Shown here piece by piece: positions 1,195-19,703 of a stretch of DNA of 37,558 nt (the first letter of the stretch is position 1; each line of letters begins with the position of its first letter). The notes beneath the pieces are model-generated. The model saw nothing but the letters and a program-made list of their open reading frames with translations. It was not told the origin of the DNA and made no database searches. The stretch is from assembly GCA_013360565.1 (NCBI GenBank), contig JABWBI010000007.1, forward strand, positions 1 to 37,558, in the 5' to 3' direction. This DNA is from Candidatus Sumerlaeia bacterium. Its GTDB lineage: Bacteria > Sumerlaeota > Sumerlaeia > JABWBI01. The translations under genes and the position numbers were made by a program.

Positions 1195-3897
1195 TCAATC
1201 CGCCCCCAGGAGGACCAGCCCCGCCGGCACCGGCGAGGCGTAGGTGAAGCGCACGGCATCGGCGGAGACGACCTGCGTGCCGGGGACGCTGCTGCGAAGC
1301 ACGACGGCGCCTGCCGTCCCGGCGTCGAAGATGAAACGCCCCAGGAGTACCCACTGGCTGCCGTTGATCGTTTGGTTCTGCGGCGTGCTTGTAGTACCTC
1401 CCGCGTGCGTGACTTCGTAAGGCGCCGCCGTCGCGCGGTTCGACGACGCGACCCACCAGGCATAGACATCATAGAACCCGGCCCGGGGGATCGACGGGCG
1501 CCATGTCGCCGACGATGCCCCGCCGTCGCCGAAGTGGTAGAGCGAGTTCGTGAGGTAGTGCCCGCTGTTGGCGGAAGAGGGCCACGATCCGGCGGTCGAG
1601 AACTCCGCATCGGTGTTGTCAATGATGAGATCGGGCGGCGCGGCGGAAAAGACCACTTCAACCTGCACGCTGCCATTGACCGTCTGCTGAATGCTGAGCG
1701 AGTCCCCGGTGATGGAGAAGGGAACGCTGGAGCCGTTCACGAGCACGTCGATGGGCTGCTCGGTGCTGGTCAGGCGGGCGGTCAGCCGCCAATCGGTGCT
1801 CTGAAGGAGATCGAACTCGAGCGCGGCGCGCCCCTGAGTGGGCGACCAGACCGCGTCAACCAGACGCGCCGGCTGCCACTGGGTGAGAAGCATCGGCGTG
1901 TCGCGGGCGAGGATCTCGGCAATCACCGGCGGGCCGATCCAGGCATTGTTGCGATTGCTCTCGCAGGAGTCGACGTAGTTCCAGAGCGTGGCGGTCGACT
2001 CCCCGAGGAGCGTGCGACCGAAGATGTGGGGGAAGGCCACGTAGACGGAGTTGCCGTTGTAGGTGGTCGTGAACGGATAGACCTGAGAGCCGTCGTACCA
2101 TGCCGGGTAGGCGGCGGCGTAGCGGTCTTCGTACTGCTGGAGTGCATTGCCGCCGAACTCGATGAAGGGGGCATAGGTTGTGTGAATCACACCGTCGGCC
2201 GAGAGGATGTTGGAGGCGCCCCACGGGTCCTGCGTGCCGAGGACCGCGCGGGTGAACGCCTCGTTCTCCATGAAGCCGAGGACGAGGCTCTGCGAGCCGA
2301 TCAGGCCCTGGGCCCGGGCCCAGTCGGTGTACCACAGGCGCGCAACATAGCCGACGCAGATGCGCGCGACGTGGGCCGCGAACTTCTCCTCGAGCGCCGA
2401 TTGCCCGAGCGCGCGGGCCATCTTCACGCAGGCGATGGTCCCGGCGAGCGTCGCCGCATAGGGATCGCCGGTTCCCGTGCTCCAGCCGTGGTCGCCGTTG
2501 ACCACCGTCATCCAGCACCAGTCGTGCCCGAGGTCGAAGTAACGGTAGATGCGCTGGACGGCATTCCAGCGGGTCGAGACGAAGGGCCAGTCGCCTGAGC
2601 GGGTGGCGTAGGCCTGGAGCCCGAGGAGGGGCAGCGCATTGCCCCAGTCGATGTCGTAGCGATGGGGGCCGACGCCGGTGATGTGGTACGTCCAGATGTA
2701 GGACTCGCCGGTGAAGGGCTCGGTCTCCTCGTTCCAGGGCTGCTTGGGCGTGCCCGGCGCGTAGGGTGGCATGGTGAACCCGGTCGAGAGATACGTGTTC
2801 CAGGCATTGGTGATGGCGGCCTGATTGGCGGGTGTCAACAGGGGCCACGCCACCGCAGCGTTGGTCATCCCGGCATAGGCCATGTCGACGGCATTGGTCA
2901 CCCACGGTCCGGCCAAGTGGCCCACCAGATCGTTGAGCAGTACCTGGCGCGCGGCTTGGCCAGGTGGGCGCAGGTAGCCACGCTCCTCGATGGGCGGCAG
3001 TGGCAGCTCGTAGGACGCGCTGGTGCCGCTGACGTGCGCGAAGGGCCCCTGCGCCGTCAGACAGTTCGTGTTCGTGATGCCGCCCTCGACCGAGGCGGGG
3101 TAGCCATGGCTCATGGCGAAGGCGAGCACGGGAGAGACGGGTGCGACGAACGGGCCTGAAGCGGTGAACTGCTCTGTGAAGCGCACGGCCTCTCGGCCGG
3201 ATGTGATGGCGGATGTGAATGACGTGAGCACGGGAATCTCGCGGGCCGCCCAGGTCTCGCAGTCGTCGATCAAGGCGCTGAGGGCCGAGGCCGGGAGATT
3301 CGCCGGCAAGCTGGCGATGCCGCGGGGAGTGAGAATGCGCACCTCGCCGATGCCGCCGGGGTCCTGGACGGTCAGGGTGTTCGCGGTCATGCTCCACGAC
3401 GCCGGATTGAAGCCGCTGCGGAAGGCGATGAGGATCGGGTTGCAGCTCGCACTCTGCGCGCGCACGAGAATCCAATGGCGCGTGCGGCCTGTCTGAGCGG
3501 GTTCGCGCTGAGCGATGAATGTCGAGCCGGTGAAGCGGATCTCCATCTGCGTCCCGAAAGTCGCCGAGAAGCCGGGATAGAGGAGCGTGTAGCGAATCTG
3601 AGAGGGCTCTCCCGGGCTGCCGCCGCTGATGGCGAGCGTCTTCTGCGTCGCGTCGAGGCTGACCACCGACGCGGTGCCGGTCCCGAGGCCGAAGGTCCCA
3701 CGCAGATCGGGCTCGGTCGGGAACGTCTCGAAATGGGTCGGCGTGACAAGCAGCGTGAGAAGGCCATCCTCGTTGATGCGTCCGAATCGGCCGAAGCCGT
3801 CCGGAAACGTCTCGGCCGAGCCACTCAGGCTGGCCATCAGCACGGCAACTGCGCTGATTCGGATCGCGGTGCACCGTCTCTGTCTGGAAATCCCCAT
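1195..3897 (-). CDS. Secreted 900-aa protein with helical glycosidase-like core and golvesin-C-like C-terminal domain
   Basis: The N-terminus is a classic signal peptide (basic MGISRQRR, a hydrophobic stretch, then ASLSGSAE), so the protein is exported. The start ATG follows a GAGGA ribosome site. The first ~270 residues look beta-rich. About residues 290-640 are rich in Trp, Tyr and Asp and alternate helix-like segments with motifs such as HRYDIDWGNALPLL, DLGHDWCWMTVVNGDHGW and YAATLAG. This resembles alpha/alpha-toroid polysaccharide-active enzymes, but no family signature is certain. Near the C-terminus (about 745-885), segments DNTDAEF, HYLTNSLYHFGDG and GFYDVYAWWV match golvesin C-terminal-like or carbohydrate-binding modules of secreted bacterial enzymes. 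A role on an extracellular polymer is inferred. It sits 20 bp downstream of the FG-GAP protein on the same strand. Function unproven. Confidence 0.75.
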   Translation of the reverse strand: MGISRQRRCTAIRISAVAVLMASLSGSAETFPDGFGRFGRINEDGLLTLLVTPTHFETFPTEPDLRGTFGLGTGTASVVSLDATQKTLAISGGSPGEPSQIRYTLLYPGFSATFGTQMEIRFTGSTFIAQREPAQTGRTRHWILVRAQSASCNPILIAFRSGFNPASWSMTANTLTVQDPGGIGEVRILTPRGIASLPANLPASALSALIDDCETWAAREIPVLTSFTSAITSGREAVRFTEQFTASGPFVAPVSPVLAFAMSHGYPASVEGGITNTNCLTAQGPFAHVSGTSASYELPLPPIEERGYLRPPGQAARQVLLNDLVGHLAGPWVTNAVDMAYAGMTNAAVAWPLLTPANQAAITNAWNTYLSTGFTMPPYAPGTPKQPWNEETEPFTGESYIWTYHITGVGPHRYDIDWGNALPLLGLQAYATRSGDWPFVSTRWNAVQRIYRYFDLGHDWCWMTVVNGDHGWSTGTGDPYAATLAGTIACVKMARALGQSALEEKFAAHVARICVGYVARLWYTDWARAQGLIGSQSLVLGFMENEAFTRAVLGTQDPWGASNILSADGVIHTTYAPFIEFGGNALQQYEDRYAAAYPAWYDGSQVYPFTTTYNGNSVYVAFPHIFGRTLLGESTATLWNYVDSCESNRNNAWIGPPVIAEILARDTPMLLTQWQPARLVDAVWSPTQGRAALEFDLLQSTDWRLTARLTSTEQPIDVLVNGSSVPFSITGDSLSIQQTVNGSVQVEVVFSAAPPDLIIDNTDAEFSTAGSWPSSANSGHYLTNSLYHFGDGGASSATWRPSIPRAGFYDVYAWWVASSNRATAAPYEVTHAGGTTSTPQNQTINGSQWVLLGRFIFDAGTAGAVVLRSSVPGTQVVSADAVRFTYASPVPAGLVLLGAD

Positions 3898-3917: not shown

Positions 3918-6212
3918 TCAGTGCCGGCCGCGGTAGATGAGCAGATGCTCGTGGCTCAGCAGGGCAAGGTCATCAAGGCCGTCTTCGTCCAAGTCCCCGA
4001 CCGCCAGTTCCCGCGGCTCGACGGTGATTTCGCTCAGGCTCCGGTCCCAGTCGCCCCGGCGCTCGTTGACTGTCTCGAACACCTGAAAGCGCCAGAGCTC
4101 TTCCAAGCCTCCCTCCGCGCCGCGCCAGCGGTGAGCGAAGAGCACATGATGCCGGTGATCCGTGAGATGGGCGAGGAGGCCGCTGGCGCCCCAGGCGAGC
4201 GTCTCGACCCGGCCGAAGCGGCCATCGTCGAGCGGCGAGCCGAGCGTCGCCAGCTGCTCCAGCGGGGGATGGGTCACACCACCGAACAGAAGCACGACGG
4301 CGCCGGCTCCCTTGGCCGCGAGATCCGTGATCCCGTCGCCGTCCCAGTCACCGACCGCCAGCCGCTGCGGAGAGTCCAGATCGGTTTCCACCTCCCCGAT
4401 GACTTCCCATTGACCGTCGGCCCCTGGCGCGGCGACAGAGACGATCCCCGAGACCCGGTCCAGCGCGAAGATCATCGGAGGCCGCCCGGTGGAGCGAGCA
4501 AGCGCGCAGACGGCCACAATCTGTGCGCCGGGCCGGTCGACGACGATCTGGCCCCGCACCTGGGGGTTCGGGGGCGAGGTGAGCGAGAGAATCCTCACCA
4601 GTCCGGCCCGGGCGAGGAGCATCTGCGGACTGCCGTCGCCGTTGAGGTCCCCGACCCAGAGCTGGTTGGGCCCCACACCCTCGAAGAAGGTCGGCGGTAT
4701 CCGGAAGCGGCTGTCGAGACTCTCCCAAGACCCGGGTTGCGATGTGACGTACACCGCCGGTGGCCGGTACTGATAGAACAGAGTCATGTCCTCCGCCCCG
4801 TCACCGTTGACATCCCCCACCCAGATCGACGACGGGTCGTCGCTCGCGAAGCCCGGAAGCCTCAGCGTTTCCGCGGACGCCGCCTGTCCCGAGAGGAGGC
4901 CTGAGAACACCTGGGTGACCAGCGCGTCTGAGCTGTCCCGGCCGATGACCAGCAGATCCAACCCGGGGGCGGCATCCAATTCACCGCCCGCTGCCGCGAG
5001 CGGCCTGAGCGCAACAGGGAGTGGCTGAGGCGGAACGGACTGGGCGCCCGGCGGCGGCGCCAGGGCGACGGTGCCCTCCGCTCGGCTGATCAGCACCAGC
5101 CGCCCATCGGACAGCCGCTGTGCCGAATCCACCTCGTTGAGAGCGGACGGTGCGTGACGCCGCAGCGACCGCGCCGCGTCCGACCTGACGAGCAGCGCCT
5201 CTGCTCCGCCTCGGACCGGCAAGTACACCGCCTCCGGTCCCTCTCCCAGTGAGCCCGCCAGGAGGGAGATCTGATCAGCGGCGTCAGATTGCGGCAGGGC
5301 GACACGCTGCGGAGAGCCGAACGCCGCGGCTGACACGCTGCTGAGCGGTTCAGCGGGGGCGAGGAGTCTGGCGATGCCCGAGGCACTCTCGAGTGTGAGA
5401 AGCCCCATGCGACCGGAGATCGCAAAGGGGGCCCAATCGAGCGCGGCCCCGACCTCGATCACTGTCTCACCGCCCGCAGCGCCCTGCCCATCATTGAAGA
5501 GGACATGGACCCGGCTCGACTCGCGTGACAGCCAGAGCAGATCTTGGAACCCATCGTCGTTCCAATCGGCGAGCCGCGGCGCGTCGCTGGGCATCGAAGT
5601 CAACGGGACCGTCCAGCGCGTGGTCAGGGTGCGATCCTCCCCGGCCGTGACCAAGGCAACCCGGGCCGGCCGCTCGCGCGTCGCCGTGACCAGGAGCTCG
5701 GGCCGACCATCCGTGTCCCAGTCGGTGACGAGCACATGGCGAGCCGGCGCGCGCAACCGCCGCGCAGTCTCGAAAGTGCGAGGCTCGCTCTGGAAGAACA
5801 CAGCCCCGCCCCCTCGCTCGCTGCCGACGGCGATGTCCGCCAAGCCGTCGCCGTCGATGTCCCCCGCGGCCAGCTGATCCACCTGTCGTCCCGTGATGAG
5901 TTCGGCTTTGACGTGGATGCGCTCCGGCGGCATGTCGCTCTCGGCATCCGGCGAAGCGGCCGCAGCCTGGCTCTCCGTCATGCCGTAGAACAGATCGATC
6001 GTCCCGTTGGCATTGTTGACCGCCAGGATGTCCCGCCGCCCGTCGCCATCGATGTCCAGGATCGTCAAGTCCTGGCTCTGCTCGTCGACGCGGTAGATGA
6101 GCGGCCGTTCAAGTGGGACGGGGTTCTCCCGCCGCTCCGGGGCCGCCGCCTGCTGGGCGGGCGACAACGGCGAGAGGAGAACGGGGAGTGCAAGGGCAAG
6201 CAAACGGTGCAA
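3918..6212 (-). CDS. Exported FG-GAP/VCBS-repeat beta-propeller protein
   Basis: This 764-residue protein is built of repeated blocks containing the calcium-binding pattern D-x-D-G-D-G followed by D-L/I, for example DIDGDGRRDIL, DIDGDGLADIAV, DWNDDGFQDLLW, DVNGDGAEDM, DLNGDGSPQML, DWDGDGITDLA and DLDEDGLDDLAL. These are FG-GAP/VCBS repeats, which fold into a beta-propeller and bind calcium in integrin-like and bacterial surface proteins. The chosen start is TTG at 6212: it has a GAGG site 7 nt upstream and gives a clean signal peptide (LHRLLALALPVLLSPLSPAQQ). A TTG at 6272 in the same frame would add 20 residues in front of it and bury the signal. It lies 78 bp downstream of hslU. Surface or periplasmic location is inferred; ligand unknown. 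Confidence 0.85.
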   Translation of the reverse strand: MHRLLALALPVLLSPLSPAQQAAAPERRENPVPLERPLIYRVDEQSQDLTILDIDGDGRRDILAVNNANGTIDLFYGMTESQAAAASPDAESDMPPERIHVKAELITGRQVDQLAAGDIDGDGLADIAVGSERGGGAVFFQSEPRTFETARRLRAPARHVLVTDWDTDGRPELLVTATRERPARVALVTAGEDRTLTTRWTVPLTSMPSDAPRLADWNDDGFQDLLWLSRESSRVHVLFNDGQGAAGGETVIEVGAALDWAPFAISGRMGLLTLESASGIARLLAPAEPLSSVSAAAFGSPQRVALPQSDAADQISLLAGSLGEGPEAVYLPVRGGAEALLVRSDAARSLRRHAPSALNEVDSAQRLSDGRLVLISRAEGTVALAPPPGAQSVPPQPLPVALRPLAAAGGELDAAPGLDLLVIGRDSSDALVTQVFSGLLSGQAASAETLRLPGFASDDPSSIWVGDVNGDGAEDMTLFYQYRPPAVYVTSQPGSWESLDSRFRIPPTFFEGVGPNQLWVGDLNGDGSPQMLLARAGLVRILSLTSPPNPQVRGQIVVDRPGAQIVAVCALARSTGRPPMIFALDRVSGIVSVAAPGADGQWEVIGEVETDLDSPQRLAVGDWDGDGITDLAAKGAGAVVLLFGGVTHPPLEQLATLGSPLDDGRFGRVETLAWGASGLLAHLTDHRHHVLFAHRWRGAEGGLEELWRFQVFETVNERRGDWDRSLSEITVEPRELAVGDLDEDGLDDLALLSHEHLLIYRGRH

Positions 6213-6290
6213 GGCTGGACCTCGGAGGGTGATGAACCCCAGACCGTGGCCCGAAATCGCACCCGTTCTCAACGCTTTTTGGGTGCCCTC

Positions 6291-7700
6291 TCAGAGGATG
6301 AAACGGCTCAGATCCTCGCTCTGGGCCAGCTCGCCCAGGCGAGAGCGGACGAAGTCCGCATCGACGGTGAGCTGCCTCGGGCCGCCGTCCGGCGCGTCGA
6401 AGGCAACCTCCTCGAGCACCTTGTCCAGCAGCGTGTGAAGCCGCCGGGCCCCGATCTGCTCGGTGAGCCGGTTCACGCGCTCGGCCGTCTGAGCGATCTC
6501 GGCGATCCCGCCAGCAGCGAAGGTGACTTCGACGCCGTCAGTCGCCAGCAGTGCGGCCGCCTGCTTGGTCAGCGCATTCTCCGGCTCGACGAGGATGCGG
6601 TGGAAGTCTGCCGCAGTCAGGGGATCCAGCTGCGCCCGCAGTGGAAAACGGCCCTGCAGCTCCGGGATCAAGTCACTCGGCTTCGTCGCGTGAAACGCGC
6701 CCGAGGCGATGAACAGGATGTGGTCGGTCCGGACAACCCCATGCTTCGTGAAGACGGCCGAGCCCTCGACGATGGGCAGCAGGTCACGCTGCACTCCCTC
6801 GCGCGACACATCCGGACCTCGGGTGTCGCCCCCCCGCCCTGCGATCTTGTCGATTTCATCAATGAAGATGATTCCCAGCTCCTCCGCGCGATTCACTCCC
6901 GAGCGCACGGCCTTCTCGTCGTCGATGCGGCGCTCGATCTCCTGGCCCAGGAGGACTGGGCGGGCCTCCTCCACCGTCATCTCTCGTCGGCGCACCCGGC
7001 CCGGCAGCATTTTGTCGAGCATGTCCTGAAACTGAGATGCCGCCTCGTCACCGCCCGCGCCCGGCATGAAGGCCGTCACCTGGGGGCCGCGCTCGCGCAC
7101 CTCGATCTCCACACGCCGCGCCTCGAGCTCCCCCGCGGCCAGCCGCTGCCGCATCTTCTCTCGGCTCCGATGATAGCGCTGTGCGCGATTCTCCTCGGGA
7201 GTCTCGGTGCCGGCGGGCACATCGGGCACGCCGGACCGCTGCTCCTCCGCCCAGGGCTCATAGCCGGGAGGTGGAGGCAGCAGCGCGTCGAGCAGGCGCT
7301 CGGTCACCGCAGCCTGGGCTGCCGGTCGGATCTCCTCGGCCAGCTCGCCTCGCACCATGTTGACGGCGACTTCCGCCAAGTCGCGAACCATCGACTCGAC
7401 ATCGCGGCCAACATACCCGACTTCGGTGTACTTCGTGGCCTCGACTTTCACGAAGGGTGCTCCGGCGAGCCGGGCGAGGCGCCGGGCGATCTCGGTCTTC
7501 CCCACGCCCGTGGGACCGATGAGCAGGATGTTCTTGGGAGTGATCTCGTCACGGAGAGGCGGTGCCACGAGGCGGCGCCGGGTCCGATTGCGCAGGGCGA
7601 TGGCAACCATGCGCTTGGCCTGCCCTTGCCCCACGATGTATTTGTCGAGCTCGGTGACGATCTGCCGCGGCGTGAGGTCAAGAGGGGACCCGAAAGCCAT
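6291..7700 (-). CDS. hslU: ATP-dependent protease ATPase subunit HslU (ClpY)
   Basis: HslU is the hexameric AAA+ unfoldase of the cytoplasmic HslUV protease. It unfolds substrates and feeds them to the HslV peptidase. The N-terminus LTPRQIVTELDKYIVGQ is diagnostic of the family. The Walker A motif GPTGVGKT lies at residues 62-69 and Walker B IIFIDEID at 277-284, with the charged intermediate (I) domain between them, then the ELQGRFPLRAQL region. The C-terminus is EDLSRFIL, the tail that in characterised HslU docks into HslV and activates it. At 469 aa it is slightly longer than the ~443 aa of E. coli. The ATG at 7700 is preceded by GGAG; a GTG at 7712 is less likely. No hslV lies next to it; the upstream gene encodes a lipoprotein. 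The retained tail implies HslV exists elsewhere. Confidence 0.96.
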   Translation of the reverse strand: MAFGSPLDLTPRQIVTELDKYIVGQGQAKRMVAIALRNRTRRRLVAPPLRDEITPKNILLIGPTGVGKTEIARRLARLAGAPFVKVEATKYTEVGYVGRDVESMVRDLAEVAVNMVRGELAEEIRPAAQAAVTERLLDALLPPPPGYEPWAEEQRSGVPDVPAGTETPEENRAQRYHRSREKMRQRLAAGELEARRVEIEVRERGPQVTAFMPGAGGDEAASQFQDMLDKMLPGRVRRREMTVEEARPVLLGQEIERRIDDEKAVRSGVNRAEELGIIFIDEIDKIAGRGGDTRGPDVSREGVQRDLLPIVEGSAVFTKHGVVRTDHILFIASGAFHATKPSDLIPELQGRFPLRAQLDPLTAADFHRILVEPENALTKQAAALLATDGVEVTFAAGGIAEIAQTAERVNRLTEQIGARRLHTLLDKVLEEVAFDAPDGGPRQLTVDADFVRSRLGELAQSEDLSRFIL

Positions 7701-7740
7701 GGAACGCTCCACGATGAGGGACGTGAGCCGGCCGGGCAGG

Positions 7741-8421
7741 TCAGAGGTTGCGGAAATTGAGCGGGTTGGAGAAGTAGGTTCGCCTCAGCTCACGGGCGAT
7801 GCGCTGGCCAAGCTCATCCGCCGCGGCGAGCCACGATCCGAACCACTCCCGGTCGCGGTCACGTCTCTCCCACTCCGCCGTGGGTTCGCGGCCGGCCTGC
7901 TCCTGGGCGTGGAGGTCAACGACATCCCAGATCTGAACCTGATATTCGACGGTCGAGGCCCAGGTGTCGATGGTCCGGTTGTGCGCAGTCCGGGCGGCGA
8001 AGATCTGACCCGTGACGATCTTGTCGACCTCCAGATCACGGCCATAGTCCGACAGGGGGATCGCTCGCATCAGGGCATCGATCTGTGCATCGGTCATCTC
8101 CGGATGCTCGCGCTTGAGCGTGCGCGCCTGCTCGAGAAGGTAGCGCCGGAGATCGTAGGGAGGCACGACCACGACATTGTCGACCGTGTCCAGCTGGCGG
8201 GCCAGGCTCTCAGCCACCCACGCCCCGACATTTCGATTCTGCCGCACATCGGTCGAGCCGAACCACCAGCCCTCGTACGAAAAGGTCTGGCCGGTGATGC
8301 TCTCGGGAGCGCTGAACGGCATGACGGCGATGCGCACCGGACGCGATCCCGCATAGGGGGCACGGCCGCACGCGAGGAGCATGAGACTGAGCGCGGTGAG
8401 CGCGAGCAAGCGAACGGTCAC
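7741..8421 (-). CDS. CsgG/LpoB-like lipoprotein
   Basis: From GTG at 8421 the protein begins MTVRLLALTALSLMLLACGR, a textbook lipoprotein signal with lipobox LLAC. A GGAGG site lies 6 nt before this codon, which is why it is preferred over the GTG at 8463 that would add 14 residues. After lipidation the mature protein starts with a strand RIAVMPF. Later come VGAWVAESLARQLDTVDNVVVV and EVDKIVTGQIF. This order is seen in the CsgG/LpoB/TolB-N-like fold of periplasmic lipoproteins, where the strand-helix-strand core binds partner proteins. The match is by pattern only, and it is too short for a CsgG channel. Attachment to the outer or inner membrane is inferred. It lies between the kinase gene (69 bp upstream) and hslU (40 bp downstream), so the three may be co-transcribed. 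Confidence 0.7.
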   Translation of the reverse strand: MTVRLLALTALSLMLLACGRAPYAGSRPVRIAVMPFSAPESITGQTFSYEGWWFGSTDVRQNRNVGAWVAESLARQLDTVDNVVVVPPYDLRRYLLEQARTLKREHPEMTDAQIDALMRAIPLSDYGRDLEVDKIVTGQIFAARTAHNRTIDTWASTVEYQVQIWDVVDLHAQEQAGREPTAEWERRDRDREWFGSWLAAADELGQRIARELRRTYFSNPLNFRNL

Positions 8422-8490
8422 CAGGAACCTCCGGGCCACATGAGCAGCGGGAATCTGCACCACAGCGCGGGAGGACTCAACAGGAAAAGC

Positions 8491-11400
8491 TCACGGGCTG
8501 GCGGCGAAAGCGGTGTCGCTGGCGGTCATCTCGGAGAGCTCGTCGAGGACGTCCTCGAATCGAGCCCACCGCTCGCTGAGCTGCTTCTCGAGACACTTCT
8601 CCACCAGACGGCCGAGACGTGGAGACACGCCTGTCAGCGGCGGCGGCGCGGCGGTGAGATGCTGATAGGCGAGATTGCCCTCGGTGAAAGGGGGCCGGCC
8701 CATCAGCATCTCATAGAGGGTGATGCCAAAGGCGTAGATGTCGGCTCTCCCATCCACCTCATCCCCGCGGATCTGCTCGGGAGCCATGTAGAGCGGCGTT
8801 CCGACGATCTGATTTGTCAGCGTCGCGTCGGCCAGGCGGCCCGTGAGGACCTTCGCGATCCCGAAGTCGGTGATCTTCACTTCGTCCTCGGGGTGAATGA
8901 GAATGTTGGCCGGCTTGATGTCCCGGTGAACGATCCCGCGCCGGTGCGCATAGGCCAGCGCCTCGGCCATCTGACGGGCAAAGCGCAGCTTCTGGTCAGG
9001 CCTGAGCCCCGGGGCGCCCTTGATGTGGGTGCGGAGGGTTGGTCCGTTGACGAACTCCATGGAGATGAACCTCTGCCCTCCCAGAGCGCCAAAATCATGG
9101 ATCCGGATGATGTGAGGGTGAGTCAGCTGGCGCGCCGCGCGCACCTCCCGTTTCAGGCGCTCGACAATTTCCTCGTTCGCCGCGAGCTCGGGGGGAAGGA
9201 TTTTGAGCGCCACCGTCTCGTCGAGGGTCTTGTCATGGGCTCGGTAGACGCGGCCCATGCCTCCGACACCGACCTCCTCCTCGAGATTGAAGCGCTCTTT
9301 GAAGAGGTGATCTCCAATCGAAGCCAGGGCAGCGGCCGACGTCAGATTGGCTGTCGCAAACACCTGCGTTCTCACCTGCTCGACCAGATCCTCGTACCGC
9401 GTCCGGATGTCACGGAAGCCGATGTCAGCGCCGTAGAGGTTCTTCCAGGCCTCGAGGGCCTTGTCGGGCTGCCCTGCCTCCAGAAAGAGTTCCCCGAGTT
9501 GGTAGTGGAGCGGCTTCGAGGCGTCGTCCAGCGGAACCCCGTGCATCGACTGCCACGCCAAGTCGGGCATGCGCTTTTCCAGATAGGCCCGCGTCAGAGC
9601 CATCCGCACGGGCCGGAAGAGAAACACATCGTCCTGAATCGGCTGCAGAACCCGGAGCGCATCGTCGTGTCGTGACACGTCGAGATAGCGCTGTCCCAGC
9701 CTCAGGCGATTTTCGGCCGTGTCATGTTGCCGGACGATCTCCTCCTCACAGCGCAGAAGAGTCTCGATCAGATCGGTGCTCTTGGGGTCGATCTGCAGGC
9801 CCCTCTCACAGACTTCGCGTGCCCGCGTCAGCTCCCCCCGGTGGAGCAGCAACAGGCCGAGCGCCTGAATGGCGTCCAGGTTGCTCTGCCCGGTCGTGGC
9901 GGCGCGCTCGACCTTCTGCATGAGCGGCAATGTCTCCTCGCGCGAGACCTGCCGGATCACCGTCAGCTGAGACGCCGCCTCCGCCAGGTCGCCCTGATCG
10001 GTCAACAGGTCCGCCAGAAGCAGCCGCACGCGGTCGGCGCTCTCGCCCGGCAGCGTGTCGAGGAGCCGGGAGAGGAGCTTTGTGATCTGCGGGACGAGCT
10101 CGGGGTGACTCCGGACGGTCTGCCGCACCTCGGCCAAGCCATCGGAGATCTGCCCCGACTCGAGGAGCGCCCGCGCGAGGATCATCTGCGCCACGGCATC
10201 CCCTGTGCTCTCGCGTGCCACCTCGCGGTGCAAGGCGATCGTCTCGGGGTCATGCTTGCCCAGACGGCTCAGGGCGATCGAGAGGTGGCGCCGCCAGACC
10301 AGGGACTGAGGGTCTGCCTCTCGCAGCCGGTGATAGTGCGTCGCCGCCCGCTCGTAGTCTTTTGCCTCAAAGGCGGCTCGGGCCAACAGTTCGCGGGACT
10401 GCAGATCGGGAGCCGGCATGGCGCGTTCGATCTCGCACGCCCGGCGGTGCGCCTCGGCCGCTGAGCCCTGGTCCAGCAGCATCCGGATCACCACCAGCCC
10501 CATCACGGGATCATCGGGGTGACGCTCCGCCAGATCCTCCGCGAGCTCGTTGACACGGGGGTCATTGAGGCCAGACGAGGCACAGGCGAGGAGGAGCGCC
10601 CGGAGATCATCGGCCTGGGTGGGGGGATCATCGAGTAGACGCCGATAGGCCTCCCGCGCCATCTGGTCGCTCCGCCGGTTCCGGGCGCAGGCCAGACCGA
10701 ACGCCAGCCAGCGGCTCTGGCTCTCCGGTTCCCGCTGAGCGAGGCGGCCCAGAATCTCGGCCCTCTCCTCCGCCCGGCCAGAGCGCTCGAGGCACTCGGC
10801 CAAGGCCTCGAGCACCACGGCCGGGCAATCCCGCTGGGCCAGTGCCAGGACACCGCAGGCCTGCATGAGATCATCTCGCCTTCCCTGCTCGGCCAGGAGA
10901 CTGGCCAAGCGCACGACGACCGGTCCCGCCGGGGGCGGAGTGGACCGCAGGAGACGGCCCAGCGATTCATCGATGCCGCCTCCGCCTCGGCTGGCCGCGG
11001 CGAGCACTCGGACCGTGAGAGCATGAGGCTCGGCGGGACTGCCAGGAGGCAGAAGCCTTTCGACGGCTGTCACTTCATCCCACGCCTGCCGCGCGATGAG
11101 CCCCGAGGCCCGGCACAGCAGCGCCCACGGGTCGTGGGGCTTCGAGGCCAAGACCATCTCTGCGGCCGTGCCAACACCGGCCTCCGCCGTCAGGCCCTGC
11201 TCGACGGCGGCGCGACAGAGCGCCTCCGAGACCGTGGCACTTGCGCGGCCCAGGCGAACCTCCGCAGCCGCTATTCGCACGAAATCCCCGTCGAGCCTGC
11301 CGACGGCGACCTGCGCCTCGACCAGCAGACTGCCCATGCGCTGGTCGTCAGGATGGCCACGCACGAACTCTCTCAGGTGAGGCAGGGCCTCCTTCGCCCG

Positions 11401-13401
11401 TCCCCTGGCCATCAGGACTCGCCCAGTGACTCGCAGGAGATCGGGGTCCTCGGGATGAGCCTTGGCCATCTCGGCAAACAGACGAATCGCATCGTCGCTC
11501 TCGTCGCCAAGGGCGAGCAGGCAGCGCGCGAGTGCCCATCGGTTCTCGGGCGTGGGCCGAGCAGCCGCCAGCTCCTGCAAGAGCGGCTTGGACTCCGGGT
11601 CGAATCGGCCCAGGGCGCCGTAGGCCTCGGCGAGCGCGAGACGGGTCTCCGCATCGCCGGGCTTGGACTTGACGATGGGAGCGAGGAGGCGAATCACCTC
11701 GGCCCATCTGCCGGCGGCGCGCGCCTCCTGAATCTGGCGTCTCACCCGCCGTCCCCTCGAAATTGCACGGTGGCCGAAGCCGACGGCGATCAGAATCGCG
11801 ATGCCCGTGGTGACGTAGACCAGCATCCGGCGCCGTCGCTCCGGCGCCGTCACCTCTGCCAAGACATCGAGAGCCAGGGCATTCGAGGGATTGACCGCCA
11901 GAGCCTGCTCGGCAAGCGTCCGCGCCTGCTCTGTCTCTCCACCCTGCAGCGCCTGGCTCGCCAGCACGGCCATGCTCTGGACTCGGTCCGTCGCCGCCTG
12001 AATTGCGGTGGCGAGGCGCTCACGCTGGCCCGGCAGCCAGTGACCGGCATTGGCTGGATTCCCAGAGGGCGACACCCAGTGAAAATCCCCCACTTCACAC
12101 TCGACGCCCAGACGCACGGCCGTCGCGGACACCCGGCCTCGGCGGTCGACGAGGATGACGGCGTCGAGGTCCCCGCTTCCATCGAGGTCTGCGAGCAGTG
12201 GAGCTCCACTCAGCCTTCCCCCGAGCGAGACCGAGGGACCCCGCTCTCCCCCCGACTCATCGAATCGGTGAACTTCGAGTGCGCCGTCCGCATTGCCCTG
12301 GACCACAATGGCCGAGCGAGGGCCCGTGGCCGCGACGGAGGTCGTCGTGGCGGGAGCGCGGAGCAGCGACTCGCCCCACACCTCCTGGCGCGTGAGCCCG
12401 TCCATGGCCAGCACACGTCGCGGCGTCGTGGCGATGACCACACCCGACCCCGCCTCACCAACTGCGGAGAGGACGCCGAACATCGTCCCCGCCTCACCGA
12501 TCAGGCCATTGCTGAGTGCCACGAGCCCAGGGCCTGCGCCATCGACGCTCTCCTGATACCCCAGGATCACGAGCTGGCCCGCGTTGTCGGCGAAGATGAT
12601 TTCGCACCGCCCCCCACCGGCGGCACCTCCGTACACATCCGCCAGAGTGATGGTGGAAGCCAGCGCCGCCCGGCCGCTCCAGCCGAAGAGGCGCGTGCCT
12701 TCGCCCGTCAAGACGGCGAGCGAACCCACCCGGTCAGAGACGACGATGTCATCGAGCCCGTCTCCCGTCACGTCGCCGATGGACGGCCCGAAGCCGCTGC
12801 TCGTGACGAGAGGGACCGTGTGCCGAACGTGGGCCCCATTGCCCTGCGTCTCGCCAGTCAAAATGAGCATCTGAGACGGATTGGCGCCGACGATGACAAC
12901 TTCATCTCGCCCATCCCCGTCCAGATCGGCAACCGTGGGACGCGAGGTCACCTCCATGCCCAGCTCAAGGGTCTGGACGAGACCACCACTTGCGCCGTCA
13001 ATGACGTGCAGGCGCCCCCGTTCATCGGGGAGGAACAGATCGAAGGCCACATCTGCTCCCAGGGCCGCCGCCGCCCCTTCCTTCAGGTTGGCGCCATCCA
13101 CCCGGGCTCGCCAGAGGGGATCGCCCGTCGACCCGTCGATGGCCAGAAGGTCCCCCTGGAGGTCTGCCACAAAGACATCGAGCCCGCCGTCGGCGTCCAA
13201 GTCCGCCAAGAGTGGGGCCAGCGGATGGCTGAATCGCAGCTCCCGGCTCCACATCTCGACCTCGCCCTGCGCCCGCGCGATCTCGCCGTGGAGCGAAACG
13301 AGAGCCGCCGCGATGGCCAGGGCCATCGGACCACGCTGGAGGAGCGATGAGATGAAACCCACGGGGACGGGAAACCACCTGCGACTGTGGTCACTCCCCA
13401 T
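8491..13401 (-). CDS. Ser/Thr protein kinase with exported propeller, one TM helix, TPR array and C-terminal kinase
   Basis: About 1636 residues. A signal-like hydrophobic stretch near the N-terminus is followed by a propeller of FG-GAP or PQQ-like blades (about 50-440; ADLDGDGRDEVVIV, DVTGDGLDDIVV). A single membrane helix lies at about 525-544, followed by RRVRR, which predicts a cytoplasmic side after it. Residues 550-1330 are mostly TPR-like helical repeats. A complete Hanks-type kinase occupies about 1371-1623: glycine loop GVGGMGRV, Lys 1400 in VALKIL, HRDIKPAN with Asp 1494, DFG at 1512, and GTPLYMAPE. All catalytic residues are present. The gene order implies sensing outside and phosphorylation inside. 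The start is uncertain: ATG at 13401 has a close AGGA, and TTG 13428 and GTG 13422 are in frame upstream. The gene is divergent from modB. Confidence 0.9.
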   Translation of the reverse strand: MGSDHSRRWFPVPVGFISSLLQRGPMALAIAAALVSLHGEIARAQGEVEMWSRELRFSHPLAPLLADLDADGGLDVFVADLQGDLLAIDGSTGDPLWRARVDGANLKEGAAAALGADVAFDLFLPDERGRLHVIDGASGGLVQTLELGMEVTSRPTVADLDGDGRDEVVIVGANPSQMLILTGETQGNGAHVRHTVPLVTSSGFGPSIGDVTGDGLDDIVVSDRVGSLAVLTGEGTRLFGWSGRAALASTITLADVYGGAAGGGRCEIIFADNAGQLVILGYQESVDGAGPGLVALSNGLIGEAGTMFGVLSAVGEAGSGVVIATTPRRVLAMDGLTRQEVWGESLLRAPATTTSVAATGPRSAIVVQGNADGALEVHRFDESGGERGPSVSLGGRLSGAPLLADLDGSGDLDAVILVDRRGRVSATAVRLGVECEVGDFHWVSPSGNPANAGHWLPGQRERLATAIQAATDRVQSMAVLASQALQGGETEQARTLAEQALAVNPSNALALDVLAEVTAPERRRRMLVYVTTGIAILIAVGFGHRAISRGRRVRRQIQEARAAGRWAEVIRLLAPIVKSKPGDAETRLALAEAYGALGRFDPESKPLLQELAAARPTPENRWALARCLLALGDESDDAIRLFAEMAKAHPEDPDLLRVTGRVLMARGRAKEALPHLREFVRGHPDDQRMGSLLVEAQVAVGRLDGDFVRIAAAEVRLGRASATVSEALCRAAVEQGLTAEAGVGTAAEMVLASKPHDPWALLCRASGLIARQAWDEVTAVERLLPPGSPAEPHALTVRVLAAASRGGGGIDESLGRLLRSTPPPAGPVVVRLASLLAEQGRRDDLMQACGVLALAQRDCPAVVLEALAECLERSGRAEERAEILGRLAQREPESQSRWLAFGLACARNRRSDQMAREAYRRLLDDPPTQADDLRALLLACASSGLNDPRVNELAEDLAERHPDDPVMGLVVIRMLLDQGSAAEAHRRACEIERAMPAPDLQSRELLARAAFEAKDYERAATHYHRLREADPQSLVWRRHLSIALSRLGKHDPETIALHREVARESTGDAVAQMILARALLESGQISDGLAEVRQTVRSHPELVPQITKLLSRLLDTLPGESADRVRLLLADLLTDQGDLAEAASQLTVIRQVSREETLPLMQKVERAATTGQSNLDAIQALGLLLLHRGELTRAREVCERGLQIDPKSTDLIETLLRCEEEIVRQHDTAENRLRLGQRYLDVSRHDDALRVLQPIQDDVFLFRPVRMALTRAYLEKRMPDLAWQSMHGVPLDDASKPLHYQLGELFLEAGQPDKALEAWKNLYGADIGFRDIRTRYEDLVEQVRTQVFATANLTSAAALASIGDHLFKERFNLEEEVGVGGMGRVYRAHDKTLDETVALKILPPELAANEEIVERLKREVRAARQLTHPHIIRIHDFGALGGQRFISMEFVNGPTLRTHIKGAPGLRPDQKLRFARQMAEALAYAHRRGIVHRDIKPANILIHPEDEVKITDFGIAKVLTGRLADATLTNQIVGTPLYMAPEQIRGDEVDGRADIYAFGITLYEMLMGRPPFTEGNLAYQHLTAAPPPLTGVSPRLGRLVEKCLEKQLSERWARFEDVLDELSEMTASDTAFAASP

Positions 13402-13532
13402 CTTCCTGTCGGCACTGGCCACGATCAAACTCTTTTTGGCGGGGCGCCGAGCGGGTCGCGAGGGTCAGCCTTGCCATTCTGACACGCCGGGCCTCATTCT
13501 TCCTCCTTCACAAGACTGTCCCGAGCCCTCCC

Positions 13533-16763: not shown

Positions 16764-19703
16764 GTGGAGCGTCTGTCGCGTCTGGCCCGGCGCACGGCGC
16801 ACCTGCTGCTGCTCGAGGCCTTCGCGCTCACCTTCCTGGTCTTTCCCCTTCAGGCGACCCAGGACGCGCTGAGGCGGCTGCGGGAAGTGGTCATGCAGCC
16901 CTGGCTGGTCTCTCTTCTGCAGCGGCTGCGGATCAACCCGGAGACATTCTGGGCCTATGACGTCGAGGCGGCCTTCAACTCCGGCCACGAGCCGCTCGTT
17001 CTGAAGGAAGGGCTGTTCAAGTTTGCTCTCATCCTCGCGGTCGTCGCCTGGCTCCTGTCGACCCTGACACGATCTATGCCGCCCCAGCCGCGCCGGACGG
17101 CTCGCCACCGCCTCATCTGGTTTCTGGCCGCGGTCGGCCTCCTCGGTGTCAGCCTGATTCTGGGGACACTCGGCTCCCAGGGCGAGAGGCGCATGGTCTG
17201 GCTTCAGTCGCGCGCCTTCTTCACTGCGCTGGCGGGGCTGGCATTCTTCGCGCTCCTGCAGGATTTCCTCCGCTCGCGGCGCAGTGCGGAGCGGTGGATT
17301 GGCCTTCTCTTCGCGATCACCACTCCAATTCTGCTGATCTCACTGACCCAGCACCTCGGCGGCGTGCTTCTGCCAAGCGGCACGATCGCCGTTTTCGGCC
17401 TCATCCCGCTCCCCCAGGCCGCGGGCTACGAGCGCAACGCCATCGGCTCGCTCATCGGACACAACAACGGCGCGGCACTCGTGGCCGTGCCTGGACTCTG
17501 CCTGGCCCGGGCCGTTTGGTCGAGGACGCGGCGGGTGTGGCTCCGCACGTTTCTCGCGGCCTGGGTGATGCTCGCGCTCTGGGTCGTCATCCGATCCCAG
17601 AGCCGCAGCGTCATCATCTCTCTCACCGGAGGGACAGCCCTCTGGTTCGCTCTCTCCCGATGGGCCTTGCCTCGGACCGAGCGGCCACCGCGCAGCGGCC
17701 GCGCGACGTTCTGGATCGCCACGGCTGTCGCCGCCCTGGTCGCCCTGCAGACGTTCGACAGCCCCCTGCGCGGCTCCCAGTCCCTTGGCGAGCGGATGAG
17801 CCGGCTTGTGTCCCTCAGCGATCTGATGAGGGACACGCGCATGCGGACGCTGGTCACCGGGATGCCGGCCTTCTTCGATCGCCCGCTGATGGGCTGGGGC
17901 ATCGGCTCGTTCGCCTGGATCTACCCCTGGTATCAGGGTCAGCACTTCCAGGACCCGCGCCACGAGAACACGCGCCTCCACCCGACGACGCTGCTGACGC
18001 CGCAGGCACACAACGATTGGCTGCAGCTGAGCATTGAGCTCGGACTTCTGGGCCTGGTGCTCGTCCTCGCGGGCCTGTGGCTCCACTGGGGCCGGGGATG
18101 GCGATTTGCCCGGGACGGCTGTCCAGCCGCTGCCGCCCCGTTCGTCCGCGGCGCCCTCTGCGCGGGCCTGATCCTCGCCATCCAAGCCGGCCTCGACTTC
18201 CCCATGCACGTGATCCCGACAGCGCTGCTCAGTCTGCTCGTCGCCGCGCTCACAGCAAACGCCCCGGAGATCTGGGGGACACCGCGCTTCTCGAGACCCC
18301 GGCCTCTGACTCCGGCTGCGCGCATGCTGAGATGGAGCGCTGTCGCCGCTCTGCTGCTCTTCTCTCTCTGGCCGGCTCGCTGGTGGGCCGGACCACGCCA
18401 CTCGATGAATCCGGCGCACATGGCGCCCTCGCTCAGCCGCGTGATGCGGCCCGTTCTCGGAGAAATGCTCGCCGAGGCGCGCCACGTCGCGGCGCAGGCG
18501 CGAATGGATCTCTACTTCCGCGACCGCTCCCTGCGGGGAACAGACACGGCACTCTGGCTCCTCACGGATGCTCGCCGCCAGCTGCGCGATGCGATTCAAA
18601 TCACGCCCGCGGGCGGCGCGCTGCACAGCCGGATGGGAGAGGTCCTGACCTACCTCGGCGAGTGGAACCCGGCGCTCTACCACGCCGCGCTCGACGAGTT
18701 CGCCATCGCCATCGAAGACGTGCGCAACTACACGACCTACTACTACATGGGCGAGTGCCATCAGGGCATCGCCCTGGCCCACCGCGCCTCCGCCGAGGCC
18801 GCGGCCGCCGAGGGGGACACCGCACGGGCAGCGCGAGAGCGTGCCGAAGAGCGCCGCCACTGGGTCGCGGCGATGCGCAACTACAACGCCGCCCTGGTCT
18901 ACAATCCGGGCGACCCCTACTCGGCGGACACTCTCGCCAAGATGCTCATCGGAGAGGGCGAGTGGGACCAGGCCGCCCGCATTGTCCGCCTCCTCCGCCG
19001 GTGGAGCCCGGACTGGTACCGCGAGCGGTGGTACAACCGGGCACTCAACGACATCGCACTCGCCGAGTGGGATCGTGCCCTGCCCACACTGCGGCTCCTG
19101 CGCCAGGTCGAACCGGATGACCGGGTGGTGCTGGCCAGCGCCGCCGTCTGCCTCATGCGTCAGGGAAGTCTCGAGGAAGCACGGCGGACGATCCGGGAGG
19201 TGCATCTGCAGTTTCCGGAGGACCGTGATCTCGACTTCCTGGACGTGGAGCTGTTGGTCGAGGGGGGGGATCTGGAAGGGGCTGTGGCCCGGGCACGGGA
19301 GATGCCCCATCGAACCCCTCATCTGAATCTGCTGTGCCTTGAGCACATTGCGCTCACGAAGCTGGGACGTCTGGACGAGGCCCGCGAGGTGTACAGCCGC
19401 ATCCGCAGCATCGTCCTGGCGCGGGGTCAGCCCGAAGCCGCCGCACTGAGCATCCTCGGCGACCTCGCCTGGGATCTTTTCGAGGATCGTGCCCTGGCCG
19501 CGCAGTTCTACGAGTCGATGGGCACCCACCCGCTGCTGCCGCCTATCCTCTCGAAGTACCGTCTGGCGCTCCTGGCAGCGGAGCGGGGCGACCGGGATCG
19601 AGCCCGCGAGCTGCTGGCGAGCTTGGGAAACCTGCTGGCGACTCATGAGCCGTCGATGGCACTGTGGCGGTCGCTGGAGGGAGAGACTTCCCATGAACTT
19701 TGA
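16764..19703 (+). CDS. O-antigen-ligase-like (Wzy_C) membrane protein fused to TPR domain
   Basis: A 979-aa inner-membrane protein. The first ~530 residues contain around a dozen hydrophobic helices. Between them lies an extended extracytoplasmic loop with GMPAFFDRPLMGWGIGSFAWIYP and the segment AHNDWLQLSIELGLLG, the arrangement of Wzy_C / O-antigen ligase proteins, which join or polymerise glycans on lipid carriers in the periplasm. From about 590 to the end it is soluble helical TPR-like repeats (YTTYYYMGECHQGIALAHRA, NYNAALVYNPGDPYSADTLA). This ligase-plus-TPR fusion is known from several phyla. The TPR part likely recruits partners. The start is GTG 16764, 10 bp after the EIIA gene. Its 3' end overlaps the carbamate kinase start by 11 bp. 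The glycan substrate is unknown. Confidence 0.85.
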   Translation: MERLSRLARRTAHLLLLEAFALTFLVFPLQATQDALRRLREVVMQPWLVSLLQRLRINPETFWAYDVEAAFNSGHEPLVLKEGLFKFALILAVVAWLLSTLTRSMPPQPRRTARHRLIWFLAAVGLLGVSLILGTLGSQGERRMVWLQSRAFFTALAGLAFFALLQDFLRSRRSAERWIGLLFAITTPILLISLTQHLGGVLLPSGTIAVFGLIPLPQAAGYERNAIGSLIGHNNGAALVAVPGLCLARAVWSRTRRVWLRTFLAAWVMLALWVVIRSQSRSVIISLTGGTALWFALSRWALPRTERPPRSGRATFWIATAVAALVALQTFDSPLRGSQSLGERMSRLVSLSDLMRDTRMRTLVTGMPAFFDRPLMGWGIGSFAWIYPWYQGQHFQDPRHENTRLHPTTLLTPQAHNDWLQLSIELGLLGLVLVLAGLWLHWGRGWRFARDGCPAAAAPFVRGALCAGLILAIQAGLDFPMHVIPTALLSLLVAALTANAPEIWGTPRFSRPRPLTPAARMLRWSAVAALLLFSLWPARWWAGPRHSMNPAHMAPSLSRVMRPVLGEMLAEARHVAAQARMDLYFRDRSLRGTDTALWLLTDARRQLRDAIQITPAGGALHSRMGEVLTYLGEWNPALYHAALDEFAIAIEDVRNYTTYYYMGECHQGIALAHRASAEAAAAEGDTARAARERAEERRHWVAAMRNYNAALVYNPGDPYSADTLAKMLIGEGEWDQAARIVRLLRRWSPDWYRERWYNRALNDIALAEWDRALPTLRLLRQVEPDDRVVLASAAVCLMRQGSLEEARRTIREVHLQFPEDRDLDFLDVELLVEGGDLEGAVARAREMPHRTPHLNLLCLEHIALTKLGRLDEAREVYSRIRSIVLARGQPEAAALSILGDLAWDLFEDRALAAQFYESMGTHPLLPPILSKYRLALLAAERGDRDRARELLASLGNLLATHEPSMALWRSLEGETSHEL

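Follow-up and report, generated by a model that had tools for sequence, protein, structure and literature searches.

Mycobacterial PknB and PknD begin with the kinase and end with the sensor, and the same order is seen in the bacterial receptor Ser/Thr kinases of the literature cited below. A gene on a 37,558-nucleotide stretch of DNA from a Candidatus Sumerlaeia bacterium, the whole of which is called the window here, raises the question of whether a bacterial receptor kinase can be built the other way round and what such a protein might do. An earlier note, made from the DNA letters, had read the gene as a single-pass receptor of reversed order with an outside sensor at the N terminus and the kinase at the C terminus. 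This order turned out to be well supported by its conservation throughout the bacterial class.

Reading frame and domain order

The extent of the gene had been given correctly as 8491-13401; it is one uninterrupted gene encoding 1636 aa. The enclosing open reading frame spans 8491-13428 on the minus strand, and translation from an alternative TTG at 13428 would make the protein nine residues longer. From the N to the C terminus the protein consists of a signal-peptide-like end, a predicted 8-bladed propeller, a helical pair, one TM segment, TPR-like pairs and a PknB-like kinase (Table 1). Pfam analysis of the 1636-aa protein returned FG-GAP_3 at residues 159-221 (6e-12), a weak match to PQQ_2 (6e-5), many TPR families between 561 and about 1317, and Pkinase at 1372-1613 (2.8e-54, 184.7 bits). 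Two AlphaFold2 models were built on 28 orthologs and comprised residues 52-600 and 548-1632, i.e. nearly the whole chain.

Table 1. Coordinates of the features of the receptor kinase gene and its neighbours in the window.
Feature	Position	Strand	Remarks
Receptor-type Ser/Thr kinase gene	8491..13401	(-)	1636 aa from ATG at 13401
Signal-peptide-like N terminus	13270..13401	(-)	h-region MALAIAAALVSL; putative cleavage between ARA and QG; kind conserved among orthologs
Beta-propeller, predicted 8-bladed	12100..13245	(-)	residues 52-434; FG-GAP calcium-type motifs DLDADGGLD, DLDGDGRDE, DLDGSGDLD
Helical (TPR-like) pair, predicted extracytoplasmic	11893..12033	(-)	residues 457-503; AlphaFold2
Single TM segment	11770..11826	(-)	residues 526-544, within continuous predicted helix 508-562
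TPR solenoid, predicted cytoplasmic	9370..11757	(-)	residues 549-1344; 46 helices, about 23 pairs
Flexible linker, TPR solenoid to kinase	9313..9366	(-)	residues 1346-1363; pLDDT below 50
PknB-like kinase domain	8527..9306	(-)	residues 1366-1625; C-terminal
CsgG/LpoB/PelC-like lipoprotein	7741..8463	(-)	LLAC lipobox; begins 27 bp past kinase stop
HslU	6291..7712	(-)	AAA+ subunit of HslUV; 28 bp past lipoprotein

The earlier note had raised the possibility that the gene is a fusion of two genes with a missed frameshift between them. Such an artefact was ruled out because full-length orthologs stay in one uninterrupted frame in many genomes. In one genome (G018:C379; L029 plus a propeller at 5162-6235) the receptor kinase is split into two open frames of 858 and 706 aa on the same contig, which is probably a frameshift of that assembly.

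In the model of residues 548-1632 (pLDDT 86.3, pTM 0.43) the 46 helices are followed by a linker without order and a domain folded as a kinase. Because of the pTM of 0.43, the global shape of the solenoid and the placement of the kinase are uncertain. The TPR stretch, estimated beforehand at roughly 780 residues, extended over about 796. The kinase has all sequence features of a Hanks-type (PknB-like) enzyme, i.e. a glycine loop (GxGGMGxV), the lysine K1400, the glutamate E1419, the HRDxKxxN motif (HRDIKPAN, 1492-1499), DFG (1512-1514) and an activation segment. K1400, E1419, HRD 1492-1494, N1499, the DFG and the GTPxYMxPEQ motif were invariant or nearly so among orthologs, which bears out the view that the catalytic residues are intact. 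The PknB profile matched the domain with an E value of about 1e-89, and PknA and PknB were among the best Foldseek matches of the kinase model.

The PknB/PknD plan of a kinase followed by a TM segment and an outside sensor was found neither in the window nor in any full-length ortholog. Common to both plans are a PknB-like kinase domain and one TM segment, and PknD also has an outside beta-propeller, which is six-bladed (PMC2877116). Here, in contrast, the order is reversed, the propeller is predicted to have eight blades, and about 800 TPR residues lie between the TM segment and the kinase. Planctomycetota also possess membrane Ser/Thr kinases with a Hanks-type kinase, long TPR arrays and a single span; in those of Ca. 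Uabimicrobium the TPR/WD40 arrays are C-terminal and mostly periplasmic (PMC11032199), whereas the TPR array described here is predicted to be cytoplasmic and is located between the TM segment and a C-terminal kinase. Among the papers covered by a literature search there was no bacterial Ser/Thr kinase with this reversed order, and a negative search is not proof of absence.

Membrane topology and the propeller

The TM segment had been expected at about residues 525-544, and hydropathy placed it at 526-544 as the sole one found in the window protein. In the AlphaFold2 model it is held by a continuous helix of 55 residues. All 28 (near-)full-length orthologs of the class have one TM segment at the aligned position.

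Signal-peptide features were assessed by a heuristic score in the 26 orthologs that were testable. The N-terminal hydrophobic core was at least 2.0 in 22 of them and 1.81-1.97 in the remaining four. The n-region was net-positive, or nearly so, in 25 by the count of the script, and 19 had an AxA-type motif near the N terminus. Thus signal-like features recur across the orthologs though the N-terminal stretch has no sequence conservation. The positive-inside rule did not discriminate, with 103 K/R before the TM segment and 113 after it. Because a signal-like N terminus is combined with one TM segment, the propeller is predicted to be outside and the kinase inside. The direction is derived from the export signal and from the need of an intact kinase for cytoplasmic ATP, since the K/R counts are similar on both sides. 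A topology in which the membrane does not separate the propeller from the kinase, which according to the earlier note would contradict its reading, was not supported.

If the N-terminal hydrophobic stretch were not an export signal, the protein would be entirely cytoplasmic save for a peripheral helix. The modest hydrophobic cores of the orthologs, of which only about half exceeded composition shuffles (p<0.05), and the positive charges on both sides of the TM segment would suit this view. Yet its position, the positive n-region and the AxA-type motifs recur despite the unconserved sequence, and FG-GAP/BamB-like propellers are typically exported. We consider a protein of this cytoplasmic kind highly unlikely.

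Residues 52-600 were modelled with a mean pLDDT of 87.5 as 31 strands, followed by the helical pair and the TM-bearing helix. We read the 31 predicted strands as eight blades. The best company of the propeller in Foldseek were BamB, designed propellers and quinoprotein dehydrogenases, with a TM-score on target of 0.70 for BamB. The sequence of the propeller is weakly conserved, with 15-22% identity outside the family, and therefore the ligand may differ between lineages.

Binding of a PQQ cofactor was rejected because the 11-residue PQQ motif ending in Trp is not repeated in the propeller; it occurred at most once or twice per ortholog and 12 times in 28 orthologs vs. about 3 expected. FG-GAP calcium motifs were above chance (38 vs. 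0.2 expected). Because their number varied from 0 to 3 per ortholog, calcium as a shared requirement of the orthologs was rejected as well. A combination of a Ser/Thr kinase with PQQ-type propeller motifs is on record for the quinoprotein kinase RqkA/DR2518 of Deinococcus; the text cited describes neither a TPR solenoid nor an exported N-terminal propeller (PMC11007091). The near absence of the repeated PQQ motif sets the present family apart from it.

Distribution, relatives and proposed function

About 290 genomes were scanned with a propeller profile, and up to six candidates were scored in each. Scores of 197-455 bits were reached in 36 of the 39 class genomes; the three without such a match (G005, G033 and G035) are incomplete (66-75% complete). 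The highest propeller score beyond the class was 109 bits, and no kinase was found in nine outside-class loci that were opened from among the best propeller matches. The receptor kinase is a class-wide core gene carried by nearly every sequenced member of the class. The 28 (near-)full-length orthologs range from 1517 to 1825 aa, and all keep the domain order and the single TM segment.

The most conserved part is the kinase, with about 58-84% majority-residue agreement per 60-residue block, and the least conserved is the propeller with 30-47%. Such a pattern is what one would see if the output is fixed while the input diverges. It bears on the idea of a membrane-anchored assembly scaffold, where propeller and TPRs would hold an envelope machine and the kinase would contribute housekeeping regulation instead of ligand sensing. 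A BamB-like 8-bladed propeller and a very long TPR solenoid are indeed protein-binding folds, as in BamB and TPR proteins, and a class-wide core-gene distribution would suit a structural role. However, a kinase that is best conserved and keeps its catalytic residues, next to a propeller that is conserved least, fits variable input and fixed output better, and we regard the scaffold as rather unlikely.

The TPR-kinase half has its closest relatives in HSP70-TPR-kinase fusions, in which HSP70 is N-terminal, the TPRs lie between and the kinase is C-terminal. The sister in the same genome (L047:2656-6663; G000:C326) has 1336 aa with HSP70 at 175-665 (627 bits) and Pkinase at 1068-1313. It contains the HSP70 phosphate motifs GIDLGTT and VGGSTRIP, and FDFGGGTFD at the place where DnaK usually has DLGGGTFD. 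Such proteins occur all over the class; those with a confirmed kinase were found in 23 genomes, one of which belongs to another class of the phylum. A tree of the kinase plus the preceding TPRs recovered the HSP70 kinases as a single clade (97/92), nested in a group that also comprises the propeller kinases (86/84). The window protein itself was absent from this tree, and its family was represented by G001 (49% identical). Tree rows labelled 'Other' amid the propeller kinases were mostly orthologs whose locus or contig was without the propeller part. Kinase and HSP70 in a single chain have been described in a Pirellula protein, where HSP70 is at the C terminus (PMC1262709), unlike the N-terminal HSP70, TPRs and C-terminal kinase of the sister. 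A third type of C-terminal kinase, L048:3225-6077 (G000:C80) and L123 (G001), has about 950-990 aa with TPRs and kinase; no TM segment was found in it, and its N-terminal 400 residues matched no Pfam family.

IRE1 and PERK have the same order as the receptor kinase, i.e. a signal peptide, a luminal sensor, one TM segment and a cytoplasmic kinase, and an origin of the IRE1 luminal domain from an 8-bladed PQQ/BamB-like propeller has been argued for (PMC3797127). Homology was nevertheless rejected, because no IRE1/PERK luminal domain was among the 60 best PDB matches listed and IRE1-specific features were not found: no IRE1-type RNase domain follows the kinase, as the chain ends about 23 residues past Pkinase. 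Further differences are the intact propeller in place of the IRE1 fold, the long TPR insert and the bacterial PknB-like kinase. The resemblance thus is one of analogy only.

On balance we favor the view that the protein is a class-specific core receptor kinase with an exported propeller as sensor, TPRs as relay and a cytoplasmic kinase as output, a reading that we hold to be fairly probable. Domain architecture, its conservation and the gene linkage are what the sequences show; beyond this we infer topology direction, sensing, signal direction, ligand, dimerisation and substrates, like the proteostasis theme, as follows. The exported N-terminal propeller would be tethered to the inner membrane on its outer side and would read the state of the periplasm or envelope, most likely by binding a partner in the periplasm. 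Candidate inputs are a protein partner, e.g. the neighbouring OM-type lipoprotein, an unfolded or exported protein, or a glycan. The helix that leads from the outside helical pair across the membrane into the first cytoplasmic TPR could pass on tilt, rotation or dimerisation. The TPR solenoid may position substrates or dimerise and in this way control autophosphorylation and output of the C-terminal PknB-like kinase, which would be under its control through the flexible linker.

In the sister kinase the same TPR-kinase half would receive its input from the N-terminal HSP70 chaperone. Because the sister shares this half and has an HSP70 input, a likely theme is that both kinases monitor protein quality, the propeller type in the envelope and the HSP70 type in the cytoplasm, with a kinase of the same type as output. 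The receptor kinase would then be a conserved envelope sensor and one of two sister kinases, with proteostasis as a possible common theme. A reversed receptor plan that is retained across a whole bacterial class, together with a defined HSP70-sensor sister, offers a concrete case in which to test how signals from across the membrane can reach a kinase by way of a long TPR solenoid, and whether bacteria use kinases to sense protein quality in envelope and cytoplasm.

Gene neighbourhood

The lipoprotein family (window 7741-8463; orthologs L165-L195) is class-wide, with conserved GWWFGARDRY...DYGRSLNVD motifs and a lipobox G-C that was nearly invariant in 20 orthologs. Its family assignment relies on weak matches to the PDB profiles 5t10 and 5t11 (E 0.001) and 9h80, named PelC (0.014), and to Pfam LpoB in two of 20 members. 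Of 34 genomes, 14 have the genes of the lipoprotein and HslU side by side in the same orientation. Only the window and G003 have the receptor kinase immediately upstream of the lipoprotein, and G003 repeats the order kinase-lipoprotein-hslU. The receptor kinase and the lipoprotein of G001 are separated by the gene of a hybrid histidine kinase in convergent orientation, and hslV is located away from hslU in that genome. Five genomes of family f13 (G015, G025, G028, G035 and G036) have an HSP70-type TPR-kinase directly upstream of the lipoprotein; in this family no hslU or hslV match was above cut-off, the receptor kinase being present nonetheless. The FG-GAP neighbour gene had no counterpart beside any ortholog examined. 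Because the lipoprotein is linked to the propeller kinase in the window and G003 and to the HSP70 kinase in f13, the partner common to both kinase types is the lipoprotein and neither HslU nor the FG-GAP protein.

The earlier note had suggested that kinase, lipoprotein, HslU and FG-GAP protein form one envelope-stress module and that conservation of the gene order should be checked. Of this proposal the lipoprotein-hslU pair persisted, and the full order held in G003; the linkage of the receptor kinase to the pair was confined to two families, and the FG-GAP gene dropped out. Accordingly, a class-wide kinase-lipoprotein-hslU operon was rejected, given also the lack of an hslUV match above cut-off in f13. 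A dedicated stress operon whose four products act together could still be argued from the close packing of the genes on one strand of the window (gaps of 27 and 28 bp), the G003 order and the recurring pair. But the restriction to two families, the unconserved FG-GAP neighbour, the f13 genomes that keep the kinase, and the interruption in G001 make it very unlikely. By analogy, one may also imagine a bacterial counterpart of the unfolded-protein response, in which the propeller kinase, built in the IRE1/PERK order, would report on protein quality in the envelope and the HSP70 kinase, with the shared TPR-kinase half, on cytoplasmic folding, both linked to the OM-type lipoprotein and the HslU unfoldase; we deem this quite unlikely.

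Elsewhere in the window a tmRNA was detected at 768-1125 on the minus strand (Rfam 146.7 bits). Its tag peptide as given by ARAGORN, AAAWAPNPWPPWRILKFG, lacks the usual ALAA at its end, and the tag frame may have been misread. A protein of 900 aa with a Golvesin C-terminal domain (117 bits) is encoded at 1195-3897 and had no counterpart near other orthologs of the receptor kinase. Positions 16764-19703 encode an O-antigen-ligase-like (Wzy_C) membrane protein with a TPR tail.
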